A program made the translations under genes and the position numbers. Shown here piece by piece: positions 533 to 37,846 of a DNA stretch of 64,000 bases; the stretch's first letter is position 1; every line of letters starts with the position of its first letter. The notes beneath the pieces are model-generated. The model had not been told where the DNA came from. It did not search any database and saw only the letters and a program-made list of their open reading frames with translations. The stretch is from an uncultured Clostridia bacterium (GTDB lineage Bacteria > Bacillota > Clostridia > Oscillospirales > Acutalibacteraceae): NCBI GenBank assembly GCA_904399395.1, contig CAJFPJ010000046.1:1-64000 (forward strand), in the 5' to 3' direction.

Positions 533-1978
533 ATGCTGGCCAAAAATCCAAGTCAAAGAAAGCAAACCGAATTTGTTACGTTAGATGTCCTGGTGCCTCA
601 AGAGCATCTGCTTCGTAAAATCGATGCCGCCATTGATTTTTCTAAAATTTATGAGTTTGTGGATGAGCTTTACTGTGAGGACAATGGCCGTCCCAGCATT
701 GATCCGGTTGTCCTTTTTAAAATTGTTTTAATCCAGCACATCTATGGAATTCCTTCCCTGCGTAGGACCTTGGAAGAGGTCAACCTCAATTTGGCCTACC
801 GCTGGTTTATCGGGTACTCTCTGAATCGGGAAGTGCCCCATTTCTCCACGGTTAGTTATAATTTCAAACACCGCTTTACCAACGCTACGGTGGAGTATGT
901 GTTCCGTTGGATTTTAAAAGCAGCGGCGGAAGAAGGATATTTGGATACGGAAGCCATCTTTGTAGACGGAACCCATATCAAAGCCAGTGCCAACTTGAAA
1001 AAGAAGAGCAAAAAGGCGGTTCCCCAGCAGGCTAAACGGTACGCTAGGGAACTGTTTGCAGAAGTCAACCAAGACCGGGAAGAACACGGAAAAAAGCCCT
1101 TTGATGACAACGATCCCAAACCGCCCCAGGAGAAAGAATTTACCGTATCCACTACAGACCCAGACAGCGGGGTATTTCACAAAGGGGAACACAAAAAATG
1201 TTTCGCTTATGAAGCCCATACCGCCTGCGATAAACATAACTTTGTGTTAGAAGTAGAAGTAACCGCCGGAAATATCCATGACAGCGTAGCCTTTGACCCA
1301 CTTTATGACCGGCTTTGCCAACAGTACCCAGAACACAAAACCGTGGTGGCAGACAGCGCCTACAAAACACCCTGGATCTGCAAACGAATCTTCGACAGTG
1401 GAAGAATTCTTTCCACCGCTTACAAACGTCCTATGACCAAAAAAGACGGATTGCCTTGGCGGGACTATGTGTATGACGAGTATTACGACTGCGTGATTTG
1501 TCCGGAATACAAGCTGCTGCATTATGCAACCACCACCCGGGAAGGGTATCGGCAATATAAAAGCAAGGAGTATCAATGCCAAGTTTGTCCGTCTTTGCAT
1601 CAGTGTACCGAGAACAAGAAGTGTGAAAAGACGGTTAGCCGACATATCTGGCAGGAGTATATTGAGAAAGCGGAAGACATCCGCCATACCCCAAAATATG
1701 CAGAGTTATACCGAATGCGAAAAGAGAAAATAGAGCGTGTATTTGCGGATGCGAAAGAAAAGCATGGGATGCGGTACACGCAGTACCGAGGCCTCACTCA
1801 AGTCAGTCGATGGGTGAAGCTGAAGTTTGCTGCCATGAATTTGAAAAAGCTGGCCACCTGGAAGTGGAAACGAAACCATCCGGTGGATGGAGGAGGTAAC
1901 CACCCCCTTTTTGCGTTCATTATCTGGTTTTTATCCTTTGGATATAAAAGAAACCCAAGTCCTTGCCTTTTGGCTTGA
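533..1978 (+). CDS. IS1182-family DDE transposase
   Basis: 481 aa; N-terminal DxxVPxxHLLRKID... region, central VDGTHIKASAN, C-terminal RxExIERVFADAKEKHGMRYTQYRGL typical of IS1182/IS5-like transposases. Confidence 0.9.
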   Translation: MLAKNPSQRKQTEFVTLDVLVPQEHLLRKIDAAIDFSKIYEFVDELYCEDNGRPSIDPVVLFKIVLIQHIYGIPSLRRTLEEVNLNLAYRWFIGYSLNREVPHFSTVSYNFKHRFTNATVEYVFRWILKAAAEEGYLDTEAIFVDGTHIKASANLKKKSKKAVPQQAKRYARELFAEVNQDREEHGKKPFDDNDPKPPQEKEFTVSTTDPDSGVFHKGEHKKCFAYEAHTACDKHNFVLEVEVTAGNIHDSVAFDPLYDRLCQQYPEHKTVVADSAYKTPWICKRIFDSGRILSTAYKRPMTKKDGLPWRDYVYDEYYDCVICPEYKLLHYATTTREGYRQYKSKEYQCQVCPSLHQCTENKKCEKTVSRHIWQEYIEKAEDIRHTPKYAELYRMRKEKIERVFADAKEKHGMRYTQYRGLTQVSRWVKLKFAAMNLKKLATWKWKRNHPVDGGGNHPLFAFIIWFLSFGYKRNPSPCLLA

Positions 1979-2012
1979 CTTGGGTTTCTCGACAGGCTGA
2001 ATCCGGCCATAT

Positions 2013-3098
2013 TTATATGGCCGGATTCCTTTTTTCTATTTTATTTCCTTCTTCTTGCAAAACTGGCAGTGAAACGGTAAAGGCCGTTTGCCTACCCTCG
2101 CTTTCTGCTGAAACTTTTCCTCCATGCAGCTCCACAATACGCTTTACAATAGCCAGGCCAATACCGGCGCCTTCTGCAGCGTGGGAGGTATCCGCCTGAT
2201 AAAATTTCTGAAAAACTCGATTCTTTTCCTCTTCACTAATGGGCTCTCCCGTATTTTGAATAGTCACTTTCAGGCAGTCTGTGTCCCTGGAGATACGGAT
2301 ATGAATTTCCTCCTTTTCTGCAGAAAACTTAATGGCATTATCCAGAAGATTGATCCAAACCTGCTTTAGAAATTCTTCATTTCCCATCCATTCGTATTCA
2401 CCAAATTCCGCCTGAATGCCCAACTCTTTTTCCTCCCATTTTTTCTCCAGAAGGAGGATACAGCTGCGAATCTGCTCAGAAAGATTAAAGCAGGTAATAT
2501 CTGTGAGAATACTTTGATTTTCCACCTTTGTTAAATCGAGAATATTCGTAGCCATTGTAGAAAGCCGTGACGCCTCTTCCACAATAATTTCCAGATATTC
2601 TTCACGGGTCTCCTTGGGAAGCTCTCCCTTTTGCAACAGCTTTGCAAAGCCCCGGATAGAAACAATGGGTGTCTTAAATTCATGTGAAAAATTATTAACA
2701 AAGTCCGACCGCAGCATTTCAGTATTTTTTAGCTCCGCCGCAAGAGTATTGAAACTCTGGGAAATCTCCCTGCCAACTCTCCCCTCTCCCAAATCCAGCC
2801 TGGCTTCATAATCCCCTTTTGCAAGCCGGTCCATACCACTTATCAATTTGTTTATGGGCTTCAAAGGGATCTTACTAATAAAGGCGGCTACCAATGTTCC
2901 GATGACCACGCTTGCCGCAATCGTAATAGTTACAGGTATTCCCAATCCGTAGCGGTTGACATTTTGAAACACGCCCAGTCTAGTGAGCAAAAAGGCAATA
3001 AACCCCACAACCGCTGCCGTTATCATAAAAATGCAAAATACAATCAGAATAAACAAAAACGTCAGTATTCCTCGTGAAGGTCTTTTCACCTTTTTCAT
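2013..3098 (-). CDS. Sensor histidine kinase (TM, HAMP, HisKA, HATPase)
   Basis: FSHEFKTPIVSIRGFAKLLQKG H-box; N-box NLLDNAIKFS; GAGIGLAIVKRIVELHGG G-box. Confidence 0.95.
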   Translation of the reverse strand: MKKVKRPSRGILTFLFILIVFCIFMITAAVVGFIAFLLTRLGVFQNVNRYGLGIPVTITIAASVVIGTLVAAFISKIPLKPINKLISGMDRLAKGDYEARLDLGEGRVGREISQSFNTLAAELKNTEMLRSDFVNNFSHEFKTPIVSIRGFAKLLQKGELPKETREEYLEIIVEEASRLSTMATNILDLTKVENQSILTDITCFNLSEQIRSCILLLEKKWEEKELGIQAEFGEYEWMGNEEFLKQVWINLLDNAIKFSAEKEEIHIRISRDTDCLKVTIQNTGEPISEEEKNRVFQKFYQADTSHAAEGAGIGLAIVKRIVELHGGKVSAESEGRQTAFTVSLPVLQEEGNKIEKRNPAI

Positions 3099-3769
3099 AC
3101 CTTTTTCACCGCCTTATAGCCTAACCCCCTCACAGACTGGATCTCGAACTCCGGCCATCCTTCAAAGCGTTTTCGCAGCCGGCCAATATGAACCGTTACC
3201 GTCTCCCATCCAGTATCACTCTCTGCTCCCCAGATTTCATCCATCAGCTGAATCCGGGTAAATATCTTCCCGGGGTAAGAAAGCAACTTATACAATAAGA
3301 GAAATTCTTTCTGAGGCAGCTCCTGAGTCTCTCCCTTTTTCGTTACCGTGAAAGAATCATAATCAAGGGTCACGTCCCCTATGATAATCCTATGTTCACT
3401 GGCAATCCTGGCACGGCGGAGAAGGGCCTTGATCCGGAGCAACATTTCTTCCTCATCCACCGGTTTGGTCATGAAATCATCCGTCCCCGCCAAAAATCCC
3501 TTCTTTTTATCAGAAGGGAGCTGCTTGGCCGATACCATCAGAATAGGAAGCTCATTCTGAACGCTCCGCAGCGTCTTTGTAAATTCATAGCCGTCCATCT
3601 TAGGCATCATAACATCCAGAACTACCAGATCAATATGTTCACGTTCCATCGCCTTCAGAGCGTCCTCACCATTTTCAGCCGTTGTAACTGCATAGTTTTC
3701 TGCTTCTAAAACAGCCCGCATCAGCCGGCGGGTATTCTTATCATCATCCACCACAAGAATATGGAACAT
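3095..3769 (-). CDS. OmpR/PhoB-family response regulator
   Basis: MFHILVVDDDKNTRRLM... receiver with D53-like VLDVMMPKMDG, C-terminal winged helix (VTVHIGRLRKRFE...SVRGLGYKAV). ORF extends to 3847, but the internal Met gives a canonical receiver start; overlaps the kinase gene by 4 nt. Confidence 0.93.
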   Translation of the reverse strand: MFHILVVDDDKNTRRLMRAVLEAENYAVTTAENGEDALKAMEREHIDLVVLDVMMPKMDGYEFTKTLRSVQNELPILMVSAKQLPSDKKKGFLAGTDDFMTKPVDEEEMLLRIKALLRRARIASEHRIIIGDVTLDYDSFTVTKKGETQELPQKEFLLLYKLLSYPGKIFTRIQLMDEIWGAESDTGWETVTVHIGRLRKRFEGWPEFEIQSVRGLGYKAVKKV

Positions 3770-26431: not shown

Positions 26432-26607
26432 CCCGCCTGTGCGAACCCGTATCCGTCATAGAAATACCGGAAGCTTCGCACCCTGCTTTTGCTATAAAGC
26501 AAGCAGAAAAGAAAAATTTATTGTATATAAGAAATATGCATATGCCTTTCATTCTCGAATTAGGGCATACCAAACAAAAGGTTACATATTTTTTGTAGCC
26601 TTTTGCT
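26432..26607 (+). promoter_or_regulatory. CRISPR leader
   Basis: AT-rich stretch between cas2 and the first perfect repeat; degenerate repeats at the opposite array end fix the orientation. Confidence 0.75.
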
Positions 26608-28196
26608 GTCGCTCTCCGTATGGAGAGCGTGGATAGAAATACAAAATAACAGCTGGAGCTTACTATGCAATCGTAAGTCGCTCTCCGTATGGAGAGCGTG
26701 GATAGAAATATCAGGCTTCACTACGACAGGGCGCACGAGACCAGTCGCTCTCCGTATGGAGAGCGTGGATAGAAATACCTGTACGGATGAAAGGGCAATG
26801 ATATGGAACGGTCGCTCTCCGTATGGAGAGCGTGGATAGAAATGGGCAATCGGAGAGCTGGGCATGGCGGCATACTGTCGCTCTCCGTATGGAGAGCGTG
26901 GATAGAAATACAAAATAACAGCTGGAGCTTACTATGCAATCGTAGTCGCTCTCCGTATGGAGAGCGTGGATAGAAATGAAATATACCATTCCAACAAGCG
27001 CCAGAGTATTCCTGTCGCTCTCCGTATGGAGAGCGTGGATAGAAATATTTATGGCCTTCCGGAGCCGGAAAGCCTCAGTTGTCGCTCTCCGTATGGAGAG
27101 CGTGGATAGAAATGCGTATCCTTGTAAGCGTCCTGCAGCTCAGAATCGTCGCTCTCCGTATGGAGAGCGTGGATAGAAATCCGTTACGCTTACCCTGCAG
27201 GCATGCGCGGTTCCGGGTCGCTCTCCGTATGGAGAGCGTGGATAGAAATAATACACGCCGTCAATATATGTGACGCATAGTGGTCGCTCTCCGTATGGAG
27301 AGCGTGGATAGAAATGGTGCTGTCCTTGTTCCAATACACATCGGCTCCTGTCGCTCTCCGTATGGAGAGCGTGGATAGAAATAGGAGGAAAATAAAAAAT
27401 GAAAAAATTAACTCGAACGGTCGCTCTCCGTATGGAGAGCGTGGATAGAAATAAGCGCTGGATCACTTCGGAGGTCATCCCCTCCAGTCGCTCTCCGTAT
27501 GGAGAGCGTGGATAGAAATGCATATAGTTATGAAGGAGCAAGAAAAAAGATACCGTCGCTCTCCGTATGGAGAGCGTGGATAGAAATGTCCTCATCGCTC
27601 AACGCTATAAGCGCTCCGCCTGTCGCTCTCCGTATGGAGAGCGTGGATAGAAATAGAAGCATAGAAAGATGTACTGAGGTAGTCAAAAAGTCGCTCTCCG
27701 TATGGAGAGCGTGGATAGAAATATGGAAGATACCCATTCTAAGGAAGGAGGCGCAACGTCGCTCTCCGTATGGAGAGCGTGGATAGAAATAAAAGCTAGC
27801 CGACTACTTTGGCGTTACTACTGAGTCGCTCTCCGTATGGAGAGCGTGGATAGAAATCCCATAGGTTGTGCATAGGATTTCCTGCCTCTGCGTCGCTCTC
27901 CGTATGGAGAGCGTGGATAGAAATATTCAGGACAACACGGTATTCAAGGGAAAAGAGAGGTCGCTCTCCGTATGGAGAGCGTGGATAGAAATATGGAGGT
28001 ATTCGGGAGGAATTACCTTTGAATGGATGTCGCTCTCCGTATGGAGAGCGTGGATAGAAATATTATATTCAATAAAATTAACTGAGTCTGGGTTAGTCGC
28101 TCTCCGCAAGGAGAGCGTGGATAGAAATGCAGGAGAGCCAACGCAAAATGTGGGCAAGAGCTTGTCGCTCTCCACATGGAGAGCGAGGGTAGAAGA
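26608..28196 (+). CRISPR. Type I-C CRISPR array: 24 repeats (22 identical, 2 degenerate at the 3' end), 23 spacers of about 33-37 nt
   Basis: 33-nt repeat gtcgctctccgtatggagagcgtggatagaaat counted by eye from 26608 to 28061; variant repeats at 28096 and 28164. Confidence 0.98.
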
Positions 28197-28211
28197 TATG
28201 TCTCGGTAGCA

Positions 28212-28275
28212 AAGGTGTTTTGTGCTAATAACACAAAAACGTCCTGCATCTTCCCTTTAGAAAATGCAGGACATT
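28212..28275. terminator. Hairpins after the CRISPR array
   Basis: gtgttttgtgctaataacacaaaaac then gtcctgcat-cttccctttagaaa-atgcaggac. Confidence 0.45.
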
Positions 28276-31750: not shown

Positions 31751-31852
31751 CAAATCGAATATTGTCTTCTTTGTATACAAATAGTATATTTTTATCTTCG
31801 CAACTGCATTCAAAAAGCCGTTCTTTCTTACTATGAGGATGAAATGATATAA

Positions 31853-31894
31853 AAGATAGGAAACACGAAAAAAACGTGTCCTCCTATCTTTTGT
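31853..31894. terminator. Hairpin terminator
   Basis: aaagataggaaacacgaaaaaaacgtgtcctcctatctttt. Confidence 0.65.
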
Positions 31895-31922
31895 TATATG
31901 ACTAAAAAAGTGGGTGATCAGG

Positions 31923-32087
31923 ATGCGAAAGGAATACACATTCCACAGCAAGGAAGAAAAACCGGAAATAGTAAAGTGGTATCTATCTGGGGAATCGCCT
32001 GTAAAACTTCATAAGGAAACAGGGATAAGTGATGGAAATATTCGCAACTGGAAACAACAAAAAGAAAATTCATATCGGATTATATAA
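31923..32087 (+). pseudogene. Transposase OrfA-like HTH remnant (54 codons)
   Basis: Read by hand: MRKEYTFHSKEEKPEIVKWYLSGESPVKLHKETGISDGNIRNWKQQKENSYRII*; HTH of IS3-like OrfA with no downstream OrfB. Confidence 0.5.
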
Positions 32088-32627
32088 AAGCGGCAGAAGT
32101 GGCAGCAAAATAGGCATTATTTTGCTGCGCGTTCGTGTCTTGTGTGCAGAAGGCAGAATTCCCGGAATGATTCGTCATGGAAAATAATATATCCAGAAAA
32201 ACCTGCTGACAGGCGTACAAACAGTGCCATACTTCTTACAGTCTTTGACAGAAAAAAGCAACTTGAAAAGACGCCTGTCTGAAGACAGGACAGAACGCCT
32301 TCATGAAGATGTGGTAGAGTTCATATATAAACTTCAACTACCATTGAAAGTAATACGCTTACTTTCAAGGAAACGGTAATGATACTTAACGGTAGATTAG
32401 TGGCTGAAGACTGATGGAAGATCATCTTGAAGCCACGGGGCAGCGCAATGTTTTTATGTATGTGTGTATGATATTGAAAGTAAAGAAATCTATTTGGCAG
32501 AAAACGTTAGTACCAATAAAGATTCTTTGGTCTTGGTAAACAGACCGCAGGATAAAGACATATACTGCACCGTTCCCATGCATATTATAGGAACTTGTAT
32601 CTATCCTGTCCAACTGTATTTGATCGA

Positions 32628-32806
32628 ACCCAAAATACCCCGGACTGCGTCCGCCCATCAACGTGAAATTTACCGGCCGCAAACGTTTTTATGATGCCCT
32701 TGATACTTGTTACCGTGACGGCAATGCCGAAGCAATGGTATATCTGATTGATGAATGTCTGGATAAACGACTGGATGCGTGTTTTAGCGTATTTTATAGC
32801 TATTAA
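32628..32806 (+). pseudogene. C-terminal remnant resembling a Fic-family protein
   Basis: Frame reads NPKYPGLRPPINVKFTGRKRFYDALDTCYRDGNAEAMVYLIDECLDKRLDACFSVFYSY*; no in-frame start or Fic motif upstream. Confidence 0.35.
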
Positions 32807-32951
32807 TGGCCGAATATCGACGAAACGTAATCAAAAATTAGATAAAGAATTTTGAACCCGTCCAAATTAAAAACTGGTGTAAAGTCCGTTTTATGGGACA
32901 TATATTGTGATAATTTTATAATAAAAAATTTTATGTTGGAAGGGTTCAGTT

Positions 32952-34949
32952 ATGGCAAAAAAAGGTATCAATAAAAATAATTTATCACTATTTGATATAG
33001 AAGATATGCAGGAGCATTTTATCAACAAGAATAAGCTTGATGTTGTTAAAATGGATTATATAGGGGCGCAATCTGTCGATTGGCAGGAACTGTTTCAGGG
33101 TTTCGATAAGCTATATGCTATTACATTTTCTTCTGGATTGAATTTTGTTTATAGGCTGCTCGATATGTTTGAATATTCTGAGGTTATATTTGGTTGCGAA
33201 AGTATTATTTCTTATAGCATGAGCGAAATAATCGCATATCAAAATAATCTCATTAAAAGTATGCGCGAAAAAGCAAGCAACTCTAAAATAAATTTGCTTG
33301 ATAAAATTGATAGTGGGAAGGCAAAGTTTTATGTTGTCAGAAAACAGATATCTCACGAGAAAATTTATCTATTAGAAGCAACTGATGGCCGAAAAAGAGT
33401 TGTGATGGGCTCTGCCAATATGTCATATAATGCTTTCGGCGGCAGACAAAGAGAAAACATCTGTTACATGGATGGTAAACAAGCGTACGAATGGTATAAG
33501 AATGTTTATGACTCTCTCAAGGAAAGCAGTACAGACGAAATTACACATAAAGCCCTTGATATTGCTAATATTACTGATAATATAGATGATCTTCCTATTG
33601 CTGAAACCGTAAAACATCAGAAGGTGTTGGTGCTAGAAACAGAGAAAGAAAATTCCGAAGAAATCAACTTCATTCTAGACACTCAAAATTTAGCGAAGAC
33701 ACTAACTCCTATTGTACCGAAAGCAGAAAGAAAAACAGGTAAGATATTGTTAAACCCCGAAACATTCATTAAATTGCGTCGGCATCTAAAACATGAAAGT
33801 GTGAAAGAAAAAGAATTACGCAGTGAATATCCTCAACTGGTAATAGATGCTTTTAAACAAACTGTAACCCTAAATGGCGACACCGTTGATTTAAATCCTA
33901 CCAGTGAAGAAATACATCACGATATAGATTTATTCATAAGTTATATGGAAGGTTATAAAAAATTCCATGGCGACTATGAAGGAATGCAATACCGTTACTT
34001 TGAATTTGCAAACTGGTTTTTCTGTTCTCCTTTTATGGCAACTATGCGCGACATGGCCGCGCGTTTTGATCAAAATAAACTGCCGTATCCTGTTTTCGGA
34101 TTAGTATACGGTCAAAGCAAAGCGGGAAAGACAACCTTCTTAGAGACACTGCTAAAAATGATGATAGGCCAAAAACCAAAAATTTCCGCTCCGGACTTTA
34201 CTCGTTCAAGTATCGAAGCTCTTAAAAGAACAGTGCAAGGGGCTCCGATAATTGTTGATGATTTAACAAACAATCGTTTTAACCAGCATGCTATTGAAAC
34301 AATCAAAAATGATGATTTCGGAGTAAGTGAACATCTAACCAATTATTCTGCTGTTGTTATCAGTGCAAACGAGGATGTAAAAGCGGTCGCGCCTGAGGTA
34401 ATTCGCCGGACCATAATATGTCGTGTTGAAGCAGGGCTTACTAACACAGAAGTTATGAAAAGCAATGTAGTGCGTAACGTCCAGCAGAAAATCGGTACGG
34501 CTTTTTATAGAGAATATTTGAGAAGAATGTTAGAAATTATGCCTGATTTGATAGAACAATTAAGTGTAGAGGAAACAGAAAGCGCACCTGATATTTTGAA
34601 GTTTTCTTCTGAAATAATTGTAGATATAATAAGTCAGTTTGCTGAATTTACGCCAAAATACATAAAAGTGCTCTCTCTCGAAAATTATTTTAGCGAAAAG
34701 GTAACTGGTAAGTACGCTATAAAAACTATTAAAAATGCTTGGAAAACAAGCAGAAAATCATTTATGGTCATTCCAAAAAGCAATGAATTGCGGTATCATG
34801 CTGGACAAACGTATGATGCTGCGAGACTTATTAAGGAATTGCCTGAAACCCTCGAAGCGCATACTTCCCGTGAGTGGGTAGTGATGAATCTGGAAGAAGC
34901 AAAAGATTTCTTTGGAATCAAATTTAAAAAAACCTTTATTAAATTTTGA
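32952..34949 (+). CDS. PLD-superfamily nuclease domain fused to a P-loop (SF3/AAA+-like) ATPase
   Basis: HEKIYLLEATDGRKRVVMGSANMSYNAFGG (HxK...GSxN PLD motif); Walker A VYGQSKAGKTTFLETLL; Walker B APIIVDDLT; sensor-like VVISANEDVKAVAPEVIRRTIICRV. Confidence 0.75.
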   Translation: MAKKGINKNNLSLFDIEDMQEHFINKNKLDVVKMDYIGAQSVDWQELFQGFDKLYAITFSSGLNFVYRLLDMFEYSEVIFGCESIISYSMSEIIAYQNNLIKSMREKASNSKINLLDKIDSGKAKFYVVRKQISHEKIYLLEATDGRKRVVMGSANMSYNAFGGRQRENICYMDGKQAYEWYKNVYDSLKESSTDEITHKALDIANITDNIDDLPIAETVKHQKVLVLETEKENSEEINFILDTQNLAKTLTPIVPKAERKTGKILLNPETFIKLRRHLKHESVKEKELRSEYPQLVIDAFKQTVTLNGDTVDLNPTSEEIHHDIDLFISYMEGYKKFHGDYEGMQYRYFEFANWFFCSPFMATMRDMAARFDQNKLPYPVFGLVYGQSKAGKTTFLETLLKMMIGQKPKISAPDFTRSSIEALKRTVQGAPIIVDDLTNNRFNQHAIETIKNDDFGVSEHLTNYSAVVISANEDVKAVAPEVIRRTIICRVEAGLTNTEVMKSNVVRNVQQKIGTAFYREYLRRMLEIMPDLIEQLSVEETESAPDILKFSSEIIVDIISQFAEFTPKYIKVLSLENYFSEKVTGKYAIKTIKNAWKTSRKSFMVIPKSNELRYHAGQTYDAARLIKELPETLEAHTSREWVVMNLEEAKDFFGIKFKKTFIKF

Positions 34950-35171
34950 TTTCAATTACAATTTTCTCGCATGTGAAGTATCCATATGCTTTGGCTTTAA
35001 TATATAAAATCACAATGATATATAATACTCGGCAACTCTTTCAATTTCTATTACTTCATCCCGATTGTAACGTTTTCTCTTTTCCCTGTTAACGCTCCAT
35101 ATTTCGTTTTCTGCTGCATGCAGAAGCAGAAGGGCAATGATTCACACCGCCCTTTTTCGCTTTTCAAAATC

Positions 35172-36101
35172 TCAAGAAGCACCATTCATTTTTCTTTTTT
35201 CATCCTGGGCCCACTCATTCCTGCTGAGAAGAAGCAGAATGCTTCCCGCAAGAACAAACGCTATGAATACCCCCAACAACACCGTATCCCATATATCCCA
35301 TACCGGATACGAAAGATCCGGAGATGCATAAATTCCTTTTCGATAGAATTCCTTATCTACCGCCCGAAGTTCCCCGAATATCTGCCCCTCTGCGGGAAGA
35401 GAACTGCCCGCAGACCAGGCTGGTTCCTGCCTGCGATACTCCCAGGCCACGGCCTCCAGCTGTTCCAGCCGGATATACGCATAGGGCAGTTTATCCGCCG
35501 CTTCTTCCCCCTCTTCTGAATCCGTCTCTTCCGCCTTCAGAAAGGGGCGCACACATCTCCAGCCCGATTCATAGCCCGGAAAGCTGCAGGCACCGTAGCC
35601 ATATTCCGGTATACACGTTTCCCTATCCAGAAAATAGAGGATCCTTGTCCCTTTAGGGATTTCTGCTGCGATAGCGCTTCCCGTATCCGGCTCCTCATAA
35701 TATGTCAGATCTACAGAAAGCGTCATTTCGGGAAACGGGGGATTCTCCTGCTTCTGAGCCGTTACAATATTTGTCTGAACTCGTTCCAAGGCTTCCGCCA
35801 TACTTTTCACGGGAACCCCCTGCTGATATCCTCCCCCTAAAATGGAACCATACATATCCGAATACTGAAATTCATTGTAAGCGTATTGGCCTTCACTATC
35901 TGCTTTCACTGATAGAGCCTTTCCGATCCGTATGCCGCCCCAAATCAGAGGAATACAGGAAAAAACCAGAAGACAGTCGCCGATTTTCTTTTTCCAGTTA
36001 TGTTGCTTTCTCACACCCCTTGTCCTCCTTTTTATCCAGTTGAAAAAATACACTTTTATATGAAACGATTCCTCCTTTCCCCATAACACTCCATATTTCA
36101 T
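35172..36101 (-). CDS. Membrane protein, tandem paralog 1
   Basis: N- and C-terminal TM; EFQYSDMYGSILGGGYQQGVPVKSMAEALE; YGYGACSFPGYESGWRCVRPFLKAEE; SPDLSYPVWDIWDTVLLGVFIAFVLAGSILLLL. Confidence 0.75.
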   Translation of the reverse strand: MKYGVLWGKEESFHIKVYFFNWIKRRTRGVRKQHNWKKKIGDCLLVFSCIPLIWGGIRIGKALSVKADSEGQYAYNEFQYSDMYGSILGGGYQQGVPVKSMAEALERVQTNIVTAQKQENPPFPEMTLSVDLTYYEEPDTGSAIAAEIPKGTRILYFLDRETCIPEYGYGACSFPGYESGWRCVRPFLKAEETDSEEGEEAADKLPYAYIRLEQLEAVAWEYRRQEPAWSAGSSLPAEGQIFGELRAVDKEFYRKGIYASPDLSYPVWDIWDTVLLGVFIAFVLAGSILLLLSRNEWAQDEKRKMNGAS

Positions 36102-36165
36102 TTCCTACAGCGTGTAGAAGCAGAAGAGCGATGATTCACACCGCCCTTTTTCACTTTTCAAAATC

Positions 36166-37005
36166 TCAAGCAGCACCATTTATCTTTCTTTTTTCATCCT
36201 GGGCCCACTCATTCCTGCTGAGAAGAAGCAAAATGCTTCCTGCAAGAAAAAGCACTATGGATACGCTCAACAACACCGTATCCCATGTATCCCATATTGG
36301 GTAGGAAAGATCCGGGGATACAAAAAGAGAATGTTCATATAATGAAATATCACAATAACGAAGATAGCGAATGAAAAACTCATATTCCCCTTTCTGTTGA
36401 TTTTCCGTATGTAGACTGTCTTCAAGATAATTCCAATATACTGTTTCCAAATCACTTAGAGGAATATAATAATACGGTAACTTTTCTAATTCCTCATATT
36501 CTCCCTCTTTCAAAAAAGGCCTTACACATCGCCAGCCCTGTTTATAATCTGGAAGACCAATACATCCATACCCAATTTCTCCATAACTATTCTGAGGATT
36601 TGGCAAGAATGCTATTGTTTCACCCTGTTTCAATTCAACAGTTATGTGTGAATCTCGAGAGGGTTCAGCATAATACGTCAAATCTATAGGAAGTTCCATC
36701 GTTTTCTGCGTAAATACACCGCCTTCATCAGACAAACCTATAACTCTCCACCTTTTCAAATAGATTTCCAATTCAGCTGCCATTTCTTTAACGGGTCTTC
36801 CTTCTTTATATCCACCCTGCAAAAAAGACGTATACAAATCCGAATAGGAAAATTTGTCTGAAAAATTATGTCCGTTAGCTATCGCTTCGTTTAGCCAAAT
36901 AGCATCTTTTATACGTATACCGGAATAAAGAAGCGGTATTAATGCAACAGAAAGAAGTAAAATGCCAATTTTTTTACTCACATCTTTTACACATTTTCTT
37001 TTCAT
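36166..37005 (-). CDS. Membrane protein, tandem paralog 2
   Basis: KFSYSDLYTSFLQGGYKEGRPVKEMAAELE; GYGCIGLPDYKQGWRCVRPFLKEGE; SPDLSYPIWDTWDTVLLSVSIVLFLAGSILLLLSRNEWAQDEKRKINGAA. Confidence 0.8.
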   Translation of the reverse strand: MKRKCVKDVSKKIGILLLSVALIPLLYSGIRIKDAIWLNEAIANGHNFSDKFSYSDLYTSFLQGGYKEGRPVKEMAAELEIYLKRWRVIGLSDEGGVFTQKTMELPIDLTYYAEPSRDSHITVELKQGETIAFLPNPQNSYGEIGYGCIGLPDYKQGWRCVRPFLKEGEYEELEKLPYYYIPLSDLETVYWNYLEDSLHTENQQKGEYEFFIRYLRYCDISLYEHSLFVSPDLSYPIWDTWDTVLLSVSIVLFLAGSILLLLSRNEWAQDEKRKINGAA

Positions 37006-37027
37006 CTCTTTATACCAATTCTATAGC

Positions 37028-37846
37028 TCAATTTGTATCTGACTCAAATTTCTTTTCCAAAAGAAGCAAAATGCTTCCTGCAAGAAAAAGCACTATGAAT
37101 ACGCCCAACAACACCGTATCCCATGTATCCCATATTGGGTAGGAAAGATCCGGGGATGAAAAAATACCGAGAGAATACAAAACACTGTCGCAATTGCGAA
37201 GATGCTGTGCAACAAACAGATTTTCCTGTTCCGCGCTCCAGGGAGCTATTTCTCTGTTCTCATTGGCCTCATGGACATACTGCCTTAAAATCGTTTCCAA
37301 ATCCTCCATCGGGACATAATAATAGGGTAATTTCTCCGGATCTTCACCGCTCCCGGCTTCCATAAAAGGTCTAACACATCGCCAGCCCCGGGTATAATCC
37401 GGCAGTCCTACGCAGCCATACCCATTTGTCATCCAGCCCCCTTCCGGTTGAGGATTGACCACAATTTCTGTTCCCATTGATATTTTGAACACAGCTTGTG
37501 AGTCTGTATCTGGCGCGGAATAGTACGTAATATCCACAGGCAGCTCCATAGTTTCCAGAGAAAAGGGGCCTGCCCCGCCTATCACCGTATTGCTGTCGAC
37601 ATACTTTGTGAGCTTCCCCGCCATATCCTTAACCGGAATATTTTTGCAATAGCCTCCCTGCAAAAAAGAGGTATACAACTCAGAATATGTAAACTCCCTG
37701 GAAGAATCGTATAAATTTTTCAGAACGGCGTTCAGCTCAGCCGCTTTCCACACCCGGAATCCCGGCCAAAACAGAAAGAAAAAAGAGACGAGCAATAGGA
37801 TGACTCCTGTGGGTTTCTTCCATCTTTTACGCTCCATAGCCAGCAC
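37028..37846 (-). CDS. Membrane protein, tandem paralog 3
   Basis: EFTYSELYTSFLQGGYCKNIPVKDMAGKL; GYGCVGLPDYTRGWRCVRPFMEAG; SPDLSYPIWDTWDTVLLGVFIVLFLAGSILLLLEKK. Confidence 0.8.
   Translation of the reverse strand: MLAMERKRWKKPTGVILLLVSFFFLFWPGFRVWKAAELNAVLKNLYDSSREFTYSELYTSFLQGGYCKNIPVKDMAGKLTKYVDSNTVIGGAGPFSLETMELPVDITYYSAPDTDSQAVFKISMGTEIVVNPQPEGGWMTNGYGCVGLPDYTRGWRCVRPFMEAGSGEDPEKLPYYYVPMEDLETILRQYVHEANENREIAPWSAEQENLFVAQHLRNCDSVLYSLGIFSSPDLSYPIWDTWDTVLLGVFIVLFLAGSILLLLEKKFESDTN

Follow-up and report, generated by a model that had tools for sequence, protein, structure and literature searches.

The closest described system is APAP, in which a haloarchaeal long-A pAgo is paired with the PLD effector AgaP, reported from Natrinema pellirubrum (Cheng et al. 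2024, PMC11442185). AgaP alone was found to be toxic in H. hispanica through the residues H105, K107, G157, S158 and N160, and this toxicity was suppressed by the Argonaute; both together restricted plasmid DNA via the PLD site, and plasmid and virus DNA were cleared without noticeable abortive infection (PMC11442185). Protection was studied only in the presence of the Ago partner, AgaP by itself being toxic and not protective, and the PLD was the only AgaP domain described, the terms ATPase, Walker and P-loop having no occurrence in the text of that paper (PMC11442185). No other relevant paper on PLD-ATPase defence fusions was found in the literature covered; subscription papers and most preprints lay outside this scope, where a published name may exist.

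Among the other known systems, BfiI, the NgoAVII R protein and NgoFVII share with the protein analysed here the single-HKD PLD fold. BfiI and Nuc are single-HKD enzymes whose full active site takes two subunits. Unlike BfiI, NgoAVII R and NgoFVII, the present protein has no recognised sequence-specific DNA-recognition domain or cognate methyltransferase, and it carries an ATPase of the ring-helicase type. SauUSI, Mokosh II and other PLD-helicase fusions likewise join a PLD nuclease to a nucleic-acid-dependent ATPase; these fusions bear SF1/SF2 helicases, whereas the ATPase found here appears SF3-like, and the PADLOC model 'PLD_Helicase' matched only 2 of 51 members of the family (best E 0.003). 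The SCCmec protein Cch and the SaPI primase-helicases (PriRep1) are among the top fold matches for the C-terminal half, but they are mobile-island replication proteins without a PLD domain. The PADLOC models for Azaca ZacB and MADS mad8 matched the protein only weakly and locally, in its PLD and P-loop stretches (E 5e-5, 1e-4); single domains were covered, and architecture and partners are different. The mad8 match is uninformative, since mad8 also strongly matches random control proteins. No PADLOC model gave a strong full-length match, the best E value being 4.6e-5 over one domain.

The gene described here lies in a window of 64,000 nucleotides (positions 1 to 64,000 of contig CAJFPJ010000046.1, from an uncultured Clostridia bacterium of the Acutalibacteraceae). 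Its product would most plausibly act alone as an immune effector against DNA that enters the cell, be it from plasmids, phages or both, with a ring ATPase licensing PLD cleavage. AgaP itself is already known; what is new is its link to a bacterial family and the conserved ring-helicase-type ATPase that it carries, which was not mentioned by its discoverers. An orphan family of gut Clostridia, Kiritimatiellota, Lentisphaerota, acetic-acid bacteria, Arcobacter, Thermus and haloarchaea is thereby tied to an experimentally studied effector.

The gene and its surroundings

The open reading frame is intact, running from an ATG start to a TGA stop, and its coordinates and length (665 aa) had been given exactly in an earlier note on this DNA. 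That note had also described the gene as AT-rich, as standing alone and as lying about 5 kb past a CRISPR array, all of which agrees with the measurements: the GC content is 0.354, whereas the remainder of the window has 0.483, the nearest convincing ORFs are an XRE HTH gene 1.2 kb upstream and, about 0.2 kb downstream, an opposite-strand gene of unrecognised kind, and the gene starts 4.75 kb from the array. The features at the level of the gene are the following.

32952 to 34949, + strand: gene for a predicted PLD nuclease and SF3-like ATPase fusion, a bacterial, Argonaute-free AgaP homologue
32938 to 32944, + strand: Shine-Dalgarno-like GGAAGGG, 7 nt before the ATG, read from the sequence
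32895 to 32922, + strand: sigma-70-like promoter, GGGACA-16-TATAAT, a 10/12 match of a kind only mildly over-represented here
31800 to 35280, no strand: AT-rich insert with the gene, whose flanks are 169 nt apart in the same-genus genome G031

Since the flanks at 31799 and 35280 lie so close together in that genome, about 3.3 kb is extra in the window. The decayed mobile pieces that had been claimed around the gene were not confirmed: a 54-aa ORF (31923 to 32087) resembles, by eye, the HTH start of an IS3-type transposase OrfA, and a broken ORF lies at 32.3 to 32.8 kb, both without a Pfam match.

The CRISPR array (26605 to 28218) holds 24 repeats (GTCGCTCTCCGTATGGAGAGCGTGGATAGAAAT) and is preceded by cas1 and cas2; the spacer after the repeat at 26605 is duplicated unchanged after the repeat at 26874, and the final two repeats are degenerate. 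At 35172 to 37846, on the minus strand, three tandem paralogues of 272-309 aa were found, with a hydrophobic stretch near each terminus and without a Pfam match; another genome of the same genus (G155, locus L069) has the flanking genes but not the three paralogues between them.

The two halves of the protein and their relation to AgaP

The N-terminal part was matched by RE_NgoFVII (PF09565; E 7e-9, 35.6 bits against a curated cut-off of 23.8) and, also above cut-off, by PLDc_2 (PF13091; E 1e-6), and the best PDB match of the whole-protein model in Foldseek was 4rct, the NgoAVII R protein (E 4.9e-5), followed by weaker matches to phosphatidylserine synthases and SauUSI (5.8e-3). The single PLD motif reported earlier corresponds to one HxK...GSxN...E set (H135, K137, S154, N156 and E168), and with one HxK and one GSxN per protein a complete active site would need two subunits. 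Conservation was assessed in 51 close members and in a deep alignment of 20 members that reaches Acetobacter, Arcobacter, Athalassotoga, Thermus and one haloarchaeon.

33069 to 33566, + strand: predicted PLD nuclease domain of the NgoFVII/BfiI type, about residues 40-205 (Pfam PF09565/PF13091; Foldseek 4rct)
33354 to 33362, + strand: putative catalytic HxK, H135-E-K137, invariant in the 51 close members (H in 19/20, K in 20/20 of the deep set)
33408 to 33419, + strand: putative catalytic GSxN, G153-S-A-N156 (S154 and N156 in 20/20 of the deep set)
33453 to 33455, + strand: E168, BfiI-like acidic residue after GSxN (18/20 in the deep set)

The ATPase half gave no Pfam ATPase model above cut-off. 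The Walker A, Walker B and sensor/arginine-finger stretches previously pointed out are all present, with K393, D436, N473 and R486 in 20/20 of the deep alignment, and stand in SF3 order and spacing, the motif C Asn N473 lying 37 residues past the Walker B Asp.

33903 to 34064, + strand: helical domain before the ATPase core, residues 318-371 (AF2 model, pLDDT 71-95)
34110 to 34136, + strand: Walker A, GQSKAGKTT, residues 387-395 (G392 and K393 in 20/20)
34248 to 34268, + strand: Walker B, IIVDDLT, residues 433-439 (P432 and D436 in 20/20)
34356 to 34370, + strand: SF3 motif C / sensor 1, VISAN, residues 469-473 (N473 in 20/20; in register with the SF3 profile DUF5906)
34401 to 34412, + strand: candidate arginine finger, IRRT, residues 484-487 (R486 in 20/20; in register with the SF3 profile)
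34584 to 34946, + strand: C-terminal helix-strand domain, residues 545-665 (AF2 pLDDT 70-94 for the most part, falling lower near residue 583)

When residues 335-545 were compared with the SF3 profile DUF5906 by hhalign, a probability of 95.5 was obtained (E 1.5e-8, 141 columns) with all motifs in register, and an FtsH-type AAA profile reached 90.0 over 69 columns. The profile matches to DUF927 and VapE were weaker (65.6 and 20.2). In the AF2 model of the whole protein built on 51 close homologues the ATPase core had a pLDDT below 50; residues 318-665 alone were modelled better (pTM 0.68), and the sole PDB match of this model below 1e-3 was the SCCmec helicase Cch (5dgk, E 1.2e-4; motif core pLDDT still 53-67). 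Lesser matches were general AAA+ ATPases, PriRep1, the SaPI5 primase-helicase and the JC virus helicase, and in the viral library DUF927 and D5-like proteins appeared. Profile and fold comparison of both halves, as the earlier note had proposed, thus upholds its SF3-like reading of the ATPase; owing to the pLDDT of 53-67 in the motif core only the label SF3-like is used, the exact subclass being left aside. The domain at residues 545-665 is possibly DNA-binding, like that of other ring helicases. In the close family the ATPase half is more conserved (99 of 203 columns invariant, residues 324-526) than the PLD half (33 of 148, residues 31-178), which suggests that all members probably have one ligand or partner of the ATPase half in common.

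The comparison with AgaP extended over both halves. The profiles of the window family and of AgaP were aligned by hhalign with a probability of 99.2 (E 5.5e-20) over 558 columns, the full length including the C-terminal half, and the family HMM matched NpAgaP (3e-16) and other AgaPs (to 3e-23), although the identity between the window protein and AgaP is only 19%. The domain order is the same, PLD and then SF3-like ATPase, and the HxK/GSxN and Walker motifs correspond. NpAgaP was located on pNATPE02 (L087, 4998-7148), where all nine residue numbers given in PMC11442185 fit the ORF, its G157, S158 and N160 corresponding to the GSxN of the window protein; it shows Walker A (GESNGGKGT), Walker B (VVVDDIT), ISND and RNR at the matching places. 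Nuclease activity of the window protein is likely, judging from the catalytic residues that are kept and from the toxicity of AgaP through equivalent ones. The complete C-terminal Walker A, Walker B, sensor and arginine set is present in the haloarchaeal plasmid AgaPs (L065, L087, L088, L089 and L090).

The earlier suggestion of an undescribed effector accordingly gives way to that of a distant full-length homologue of an experimentally tested protein. By its sequence the window protein is an AgaP homologue, though it does not belong to an APAP system: the APAP operon includes a catalytically active long-A pAgo, whereas the neighbours here are the XRE HTH gene and the opposite-strand gene, and no Piwi domain was found in the window genome, so that the homologue is termed Argonaute-free. 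It also differs from AgaP in being bacterial and in the spacing between HxK and GSxN (18 residues against 52); this spacing does not define the whole family, because the Piwi-linked L065 protein is also short-spaced. Five of the examined archaeal copies follow a Piwi gene directly or one gene further on, and four have no adjacent Piwi gene (L091, L092, L164 and L165); the relative on a Natrarchaeobaculum plasmid overlaps the Piwi gene by 8 bp.

Distribution, selection and transfer

In the genome contig collection 55 relatives were found with 58-88% identity, most of them full-length, in Bacillota, Kiritimatiellota, Lentisphaerota and Fibrobacterota. None of them contains an internal stop codon, and dN/dS was 0.04-0.12 in close pairs with countable synonymous change; the gene family is functional. 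Of 300 genomes of the Acutalibacteraceae, 4 carry a full-length copy, and 12 of 398 genomes of the phylum carry a member of the gene family; the distribution is patchy, at about 1-3% of genomes. In the tree the copies from Kiritimatiellota, Lentisphaerota and Fibrobacterota are intermixed with those from Bacillota, and the gene has spread horizontally between phyla, single placements needing care as many of the genomes are metagenome bins. The nearest relative (L001) belongs to another genus and has 88% protein identity; DNA similarity to it begins at 32951 and ends at 34937, which covers the gene only and indicates that the transferred unit is the single gene.

The PLD and the ATPase also occur as separate, nearby ORFs, in one Bacillota genome and in Thermus (L077, PLD 2456-3382 and ATPase 1480-2475, minus strand; L066, 7926-8744 and 9857-10993), which shows that the two halves are modules. 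The halves of the split version in Thermus oshimai are separated by a transposase-family ORF on the opposite strand and by one further ORF. A search of PDB sequences gave no matches, and NCBIfam and PHROGs gave matches at chance level only.

A helicase-nuclease of the SF3 type serving the replication, maintenance or exclusion of a mobile element or plasmid would also be conceivable, since SCCmec, SaPIs and phages have replicative helicases similar to the ATPase, plasmids carry some of the copies, one of them adjoining ParA/ParB/Rep, and the gene lies within an AT-rich insert. This explanation is nevertheless considered unlikely: no relative was found in 50,697 phage records with the window, A1, Arcobacter, Acetobacter and AgaP queries, nor in viral contigs with the same queries (searched with short exact peptide patterns, which distant relatives could escape), the chromosomal copies have no constant replication partner, the PLD domain belongs to the type seen in restriction enzymes, and the genes nearby serve defence. 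Plasmid-borne copies, one beside ParA/ParB/Rep and several among toxin-antitoxin genes, nonetheless count against the favoured immune reading, as they also fit a role in plasmid competition or maintenance.

Gene neighbourhood and proposed mode of action

The immune role is favoured by the genes that surround the family. Neighbours of 53 relatives (138 proteins) matched 125 PADLOC families at E 1e-10, compared with 9 for 118 control ORFs from arbitrary stretches of related genomes, a contrast large enough to stand even though the control is Bacillota only, the neighbours span several phyla and families rather than proteins are tallied; no restriction-modification family was matched by the 118 control ORFs in PADLOC. 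Among the neighbours are Schlafen-group-3 helicases, NUDIX proteins, Type I R-M subunits, McrBC-type proteins, DUF3427/PLD helicases, NERD and GmrSD, and the PADLOC families matched include Type I methyltransferases, type IV restriction enzymes, PDC-S41, PDC-S07 and PbeA. This enrichment, which the earlier note had named as a check, supports its defence inference together with the patchy horizontal spread and the absence from phage and viral collections, and on genomic context a defence role of the gene is likely.

No partner gene is constant across the family: a close same-strand neighbour is present upstream in 13 of 49 and downstream in 14 of 48 cases, and on neither side in 25 loci. As the relatives sit among anti-phage genes and no Argonaute is found here, the gene is probably a one-gene defence system, and its autonomy is further supported by the missing constant partner, the 25 solitary loci and the transfer of the gene alone. 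It could instead be an effector under the control of a sensor encoded by another gene, in the way that pAgo controls AgaP; a NUDIX protein, a DUF3427/PLD helicase or a Schlafen-g3 helicase could be such a sensor. NUDIX neighbours recur at 8 loci, some of them 21 bp upstream, Schlafen-g3 helicases at 6, and archaeal copies lie directly downstream of Piwi genes. Such a hidden partner seems improbable, however, given that most loci, the window included, have no NUDIX or helicase partner, that some of the archaeal copies are not next to a Piwi gene either, and that the window and its closest relative are alike at the DNA level only within the gene. The NUDIX and helicase association may be a separate defence system favouring the same islands.

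For the one-protein effector that we favour, the following mode of action is proposed, in which nuclease activity, ring formation, invader-DNA sensing and self-inhibition are what we infer. The N-terminal PLD would be a metal-independent nuclease of the BfiI type, two subunits building one active site, and the C-terminal part an SF3-like, probably ring-forming ATPase derived from mobile-element replicative helicases. This ring would engage the DNA of an invader, in the form of replication intermediates, ssDNA or ends; by ATP turnover along that DNA the PLD domains would be brought together and cleavage released, while without invader DNA the ATPase would hold the nuclease silent, the part played by the Argonaute in archaeal APAP. 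The ring ATPase would take on the sensing or licensing for which pAgo is responsible, or to which it contributes, in the haloarchaeal system.

An abortive-infection or toxin-like effector was also considered, in which the PLD attacks the host chromosome or RNA and kills the infected cell once the ATPase senses a phage or a host inhibitor is lost. The toxicity of AgaP alone in H. hispanica via its PLD residues would agree with it (PMC11442185), as would the position of the Acetobacter and Komagataeibacter copies, which lie among toxin-antitoxin genes, and an AraC-like regulator adjoining three relatives. We regard it as rather unlikely, because there is no conserved antitoxin gene, half of the loci have no close partner, and AgaP with pAgo cleared invading DNA without noticeable abortive infection (PMC11442185).

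The one-protein reading can be extended, more tentatively and with slightly less than even confidence, to a widespread and so far unnamed immune system that consists of one gene and is shared by bacteria and archaea. In it an SF3/Cch-like replicative helicase ring of mobile-element origin, joined to a PLD nuclease, would recognise invader DNA unaided, and haloarchaeal AgaP would be a branch under Argonaute control, its ATPase being the ancestral sensor or motor. Two questions are made testable, namely whether nucleases of the AgaP type can provide defence in the absence of Argonaute, and whether it is the ATPase that discriminates extrachromosomal DNA from the chromosome, a point left open by the APAP paper (PMC11442185).

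Several gene orders recur around the relatives. In L019 and L020 a c2-NUDIX-target order was found, the NUDIX accompanying a PLD-DUF3427 helicase, and the small ORF that follows the target in these two loci and in L024 and L015, taken by eye for a nucleotide pyrophosphohydrolase, was discarded as such, the L019 copy having no Pfam match. A Schlafen-g3 helicase-target order is seen in L016, L029, L033, L035 and L036 and may be compared with the PADLOC candidate PDC-S41. An AraC-type HTH protein of 251-253 aa, possibly a regulator and without a remnant in the window, lies directly upstream of the relatives in L001 (7141-7899), L003 (263-1018) and L043 (7217-7969).
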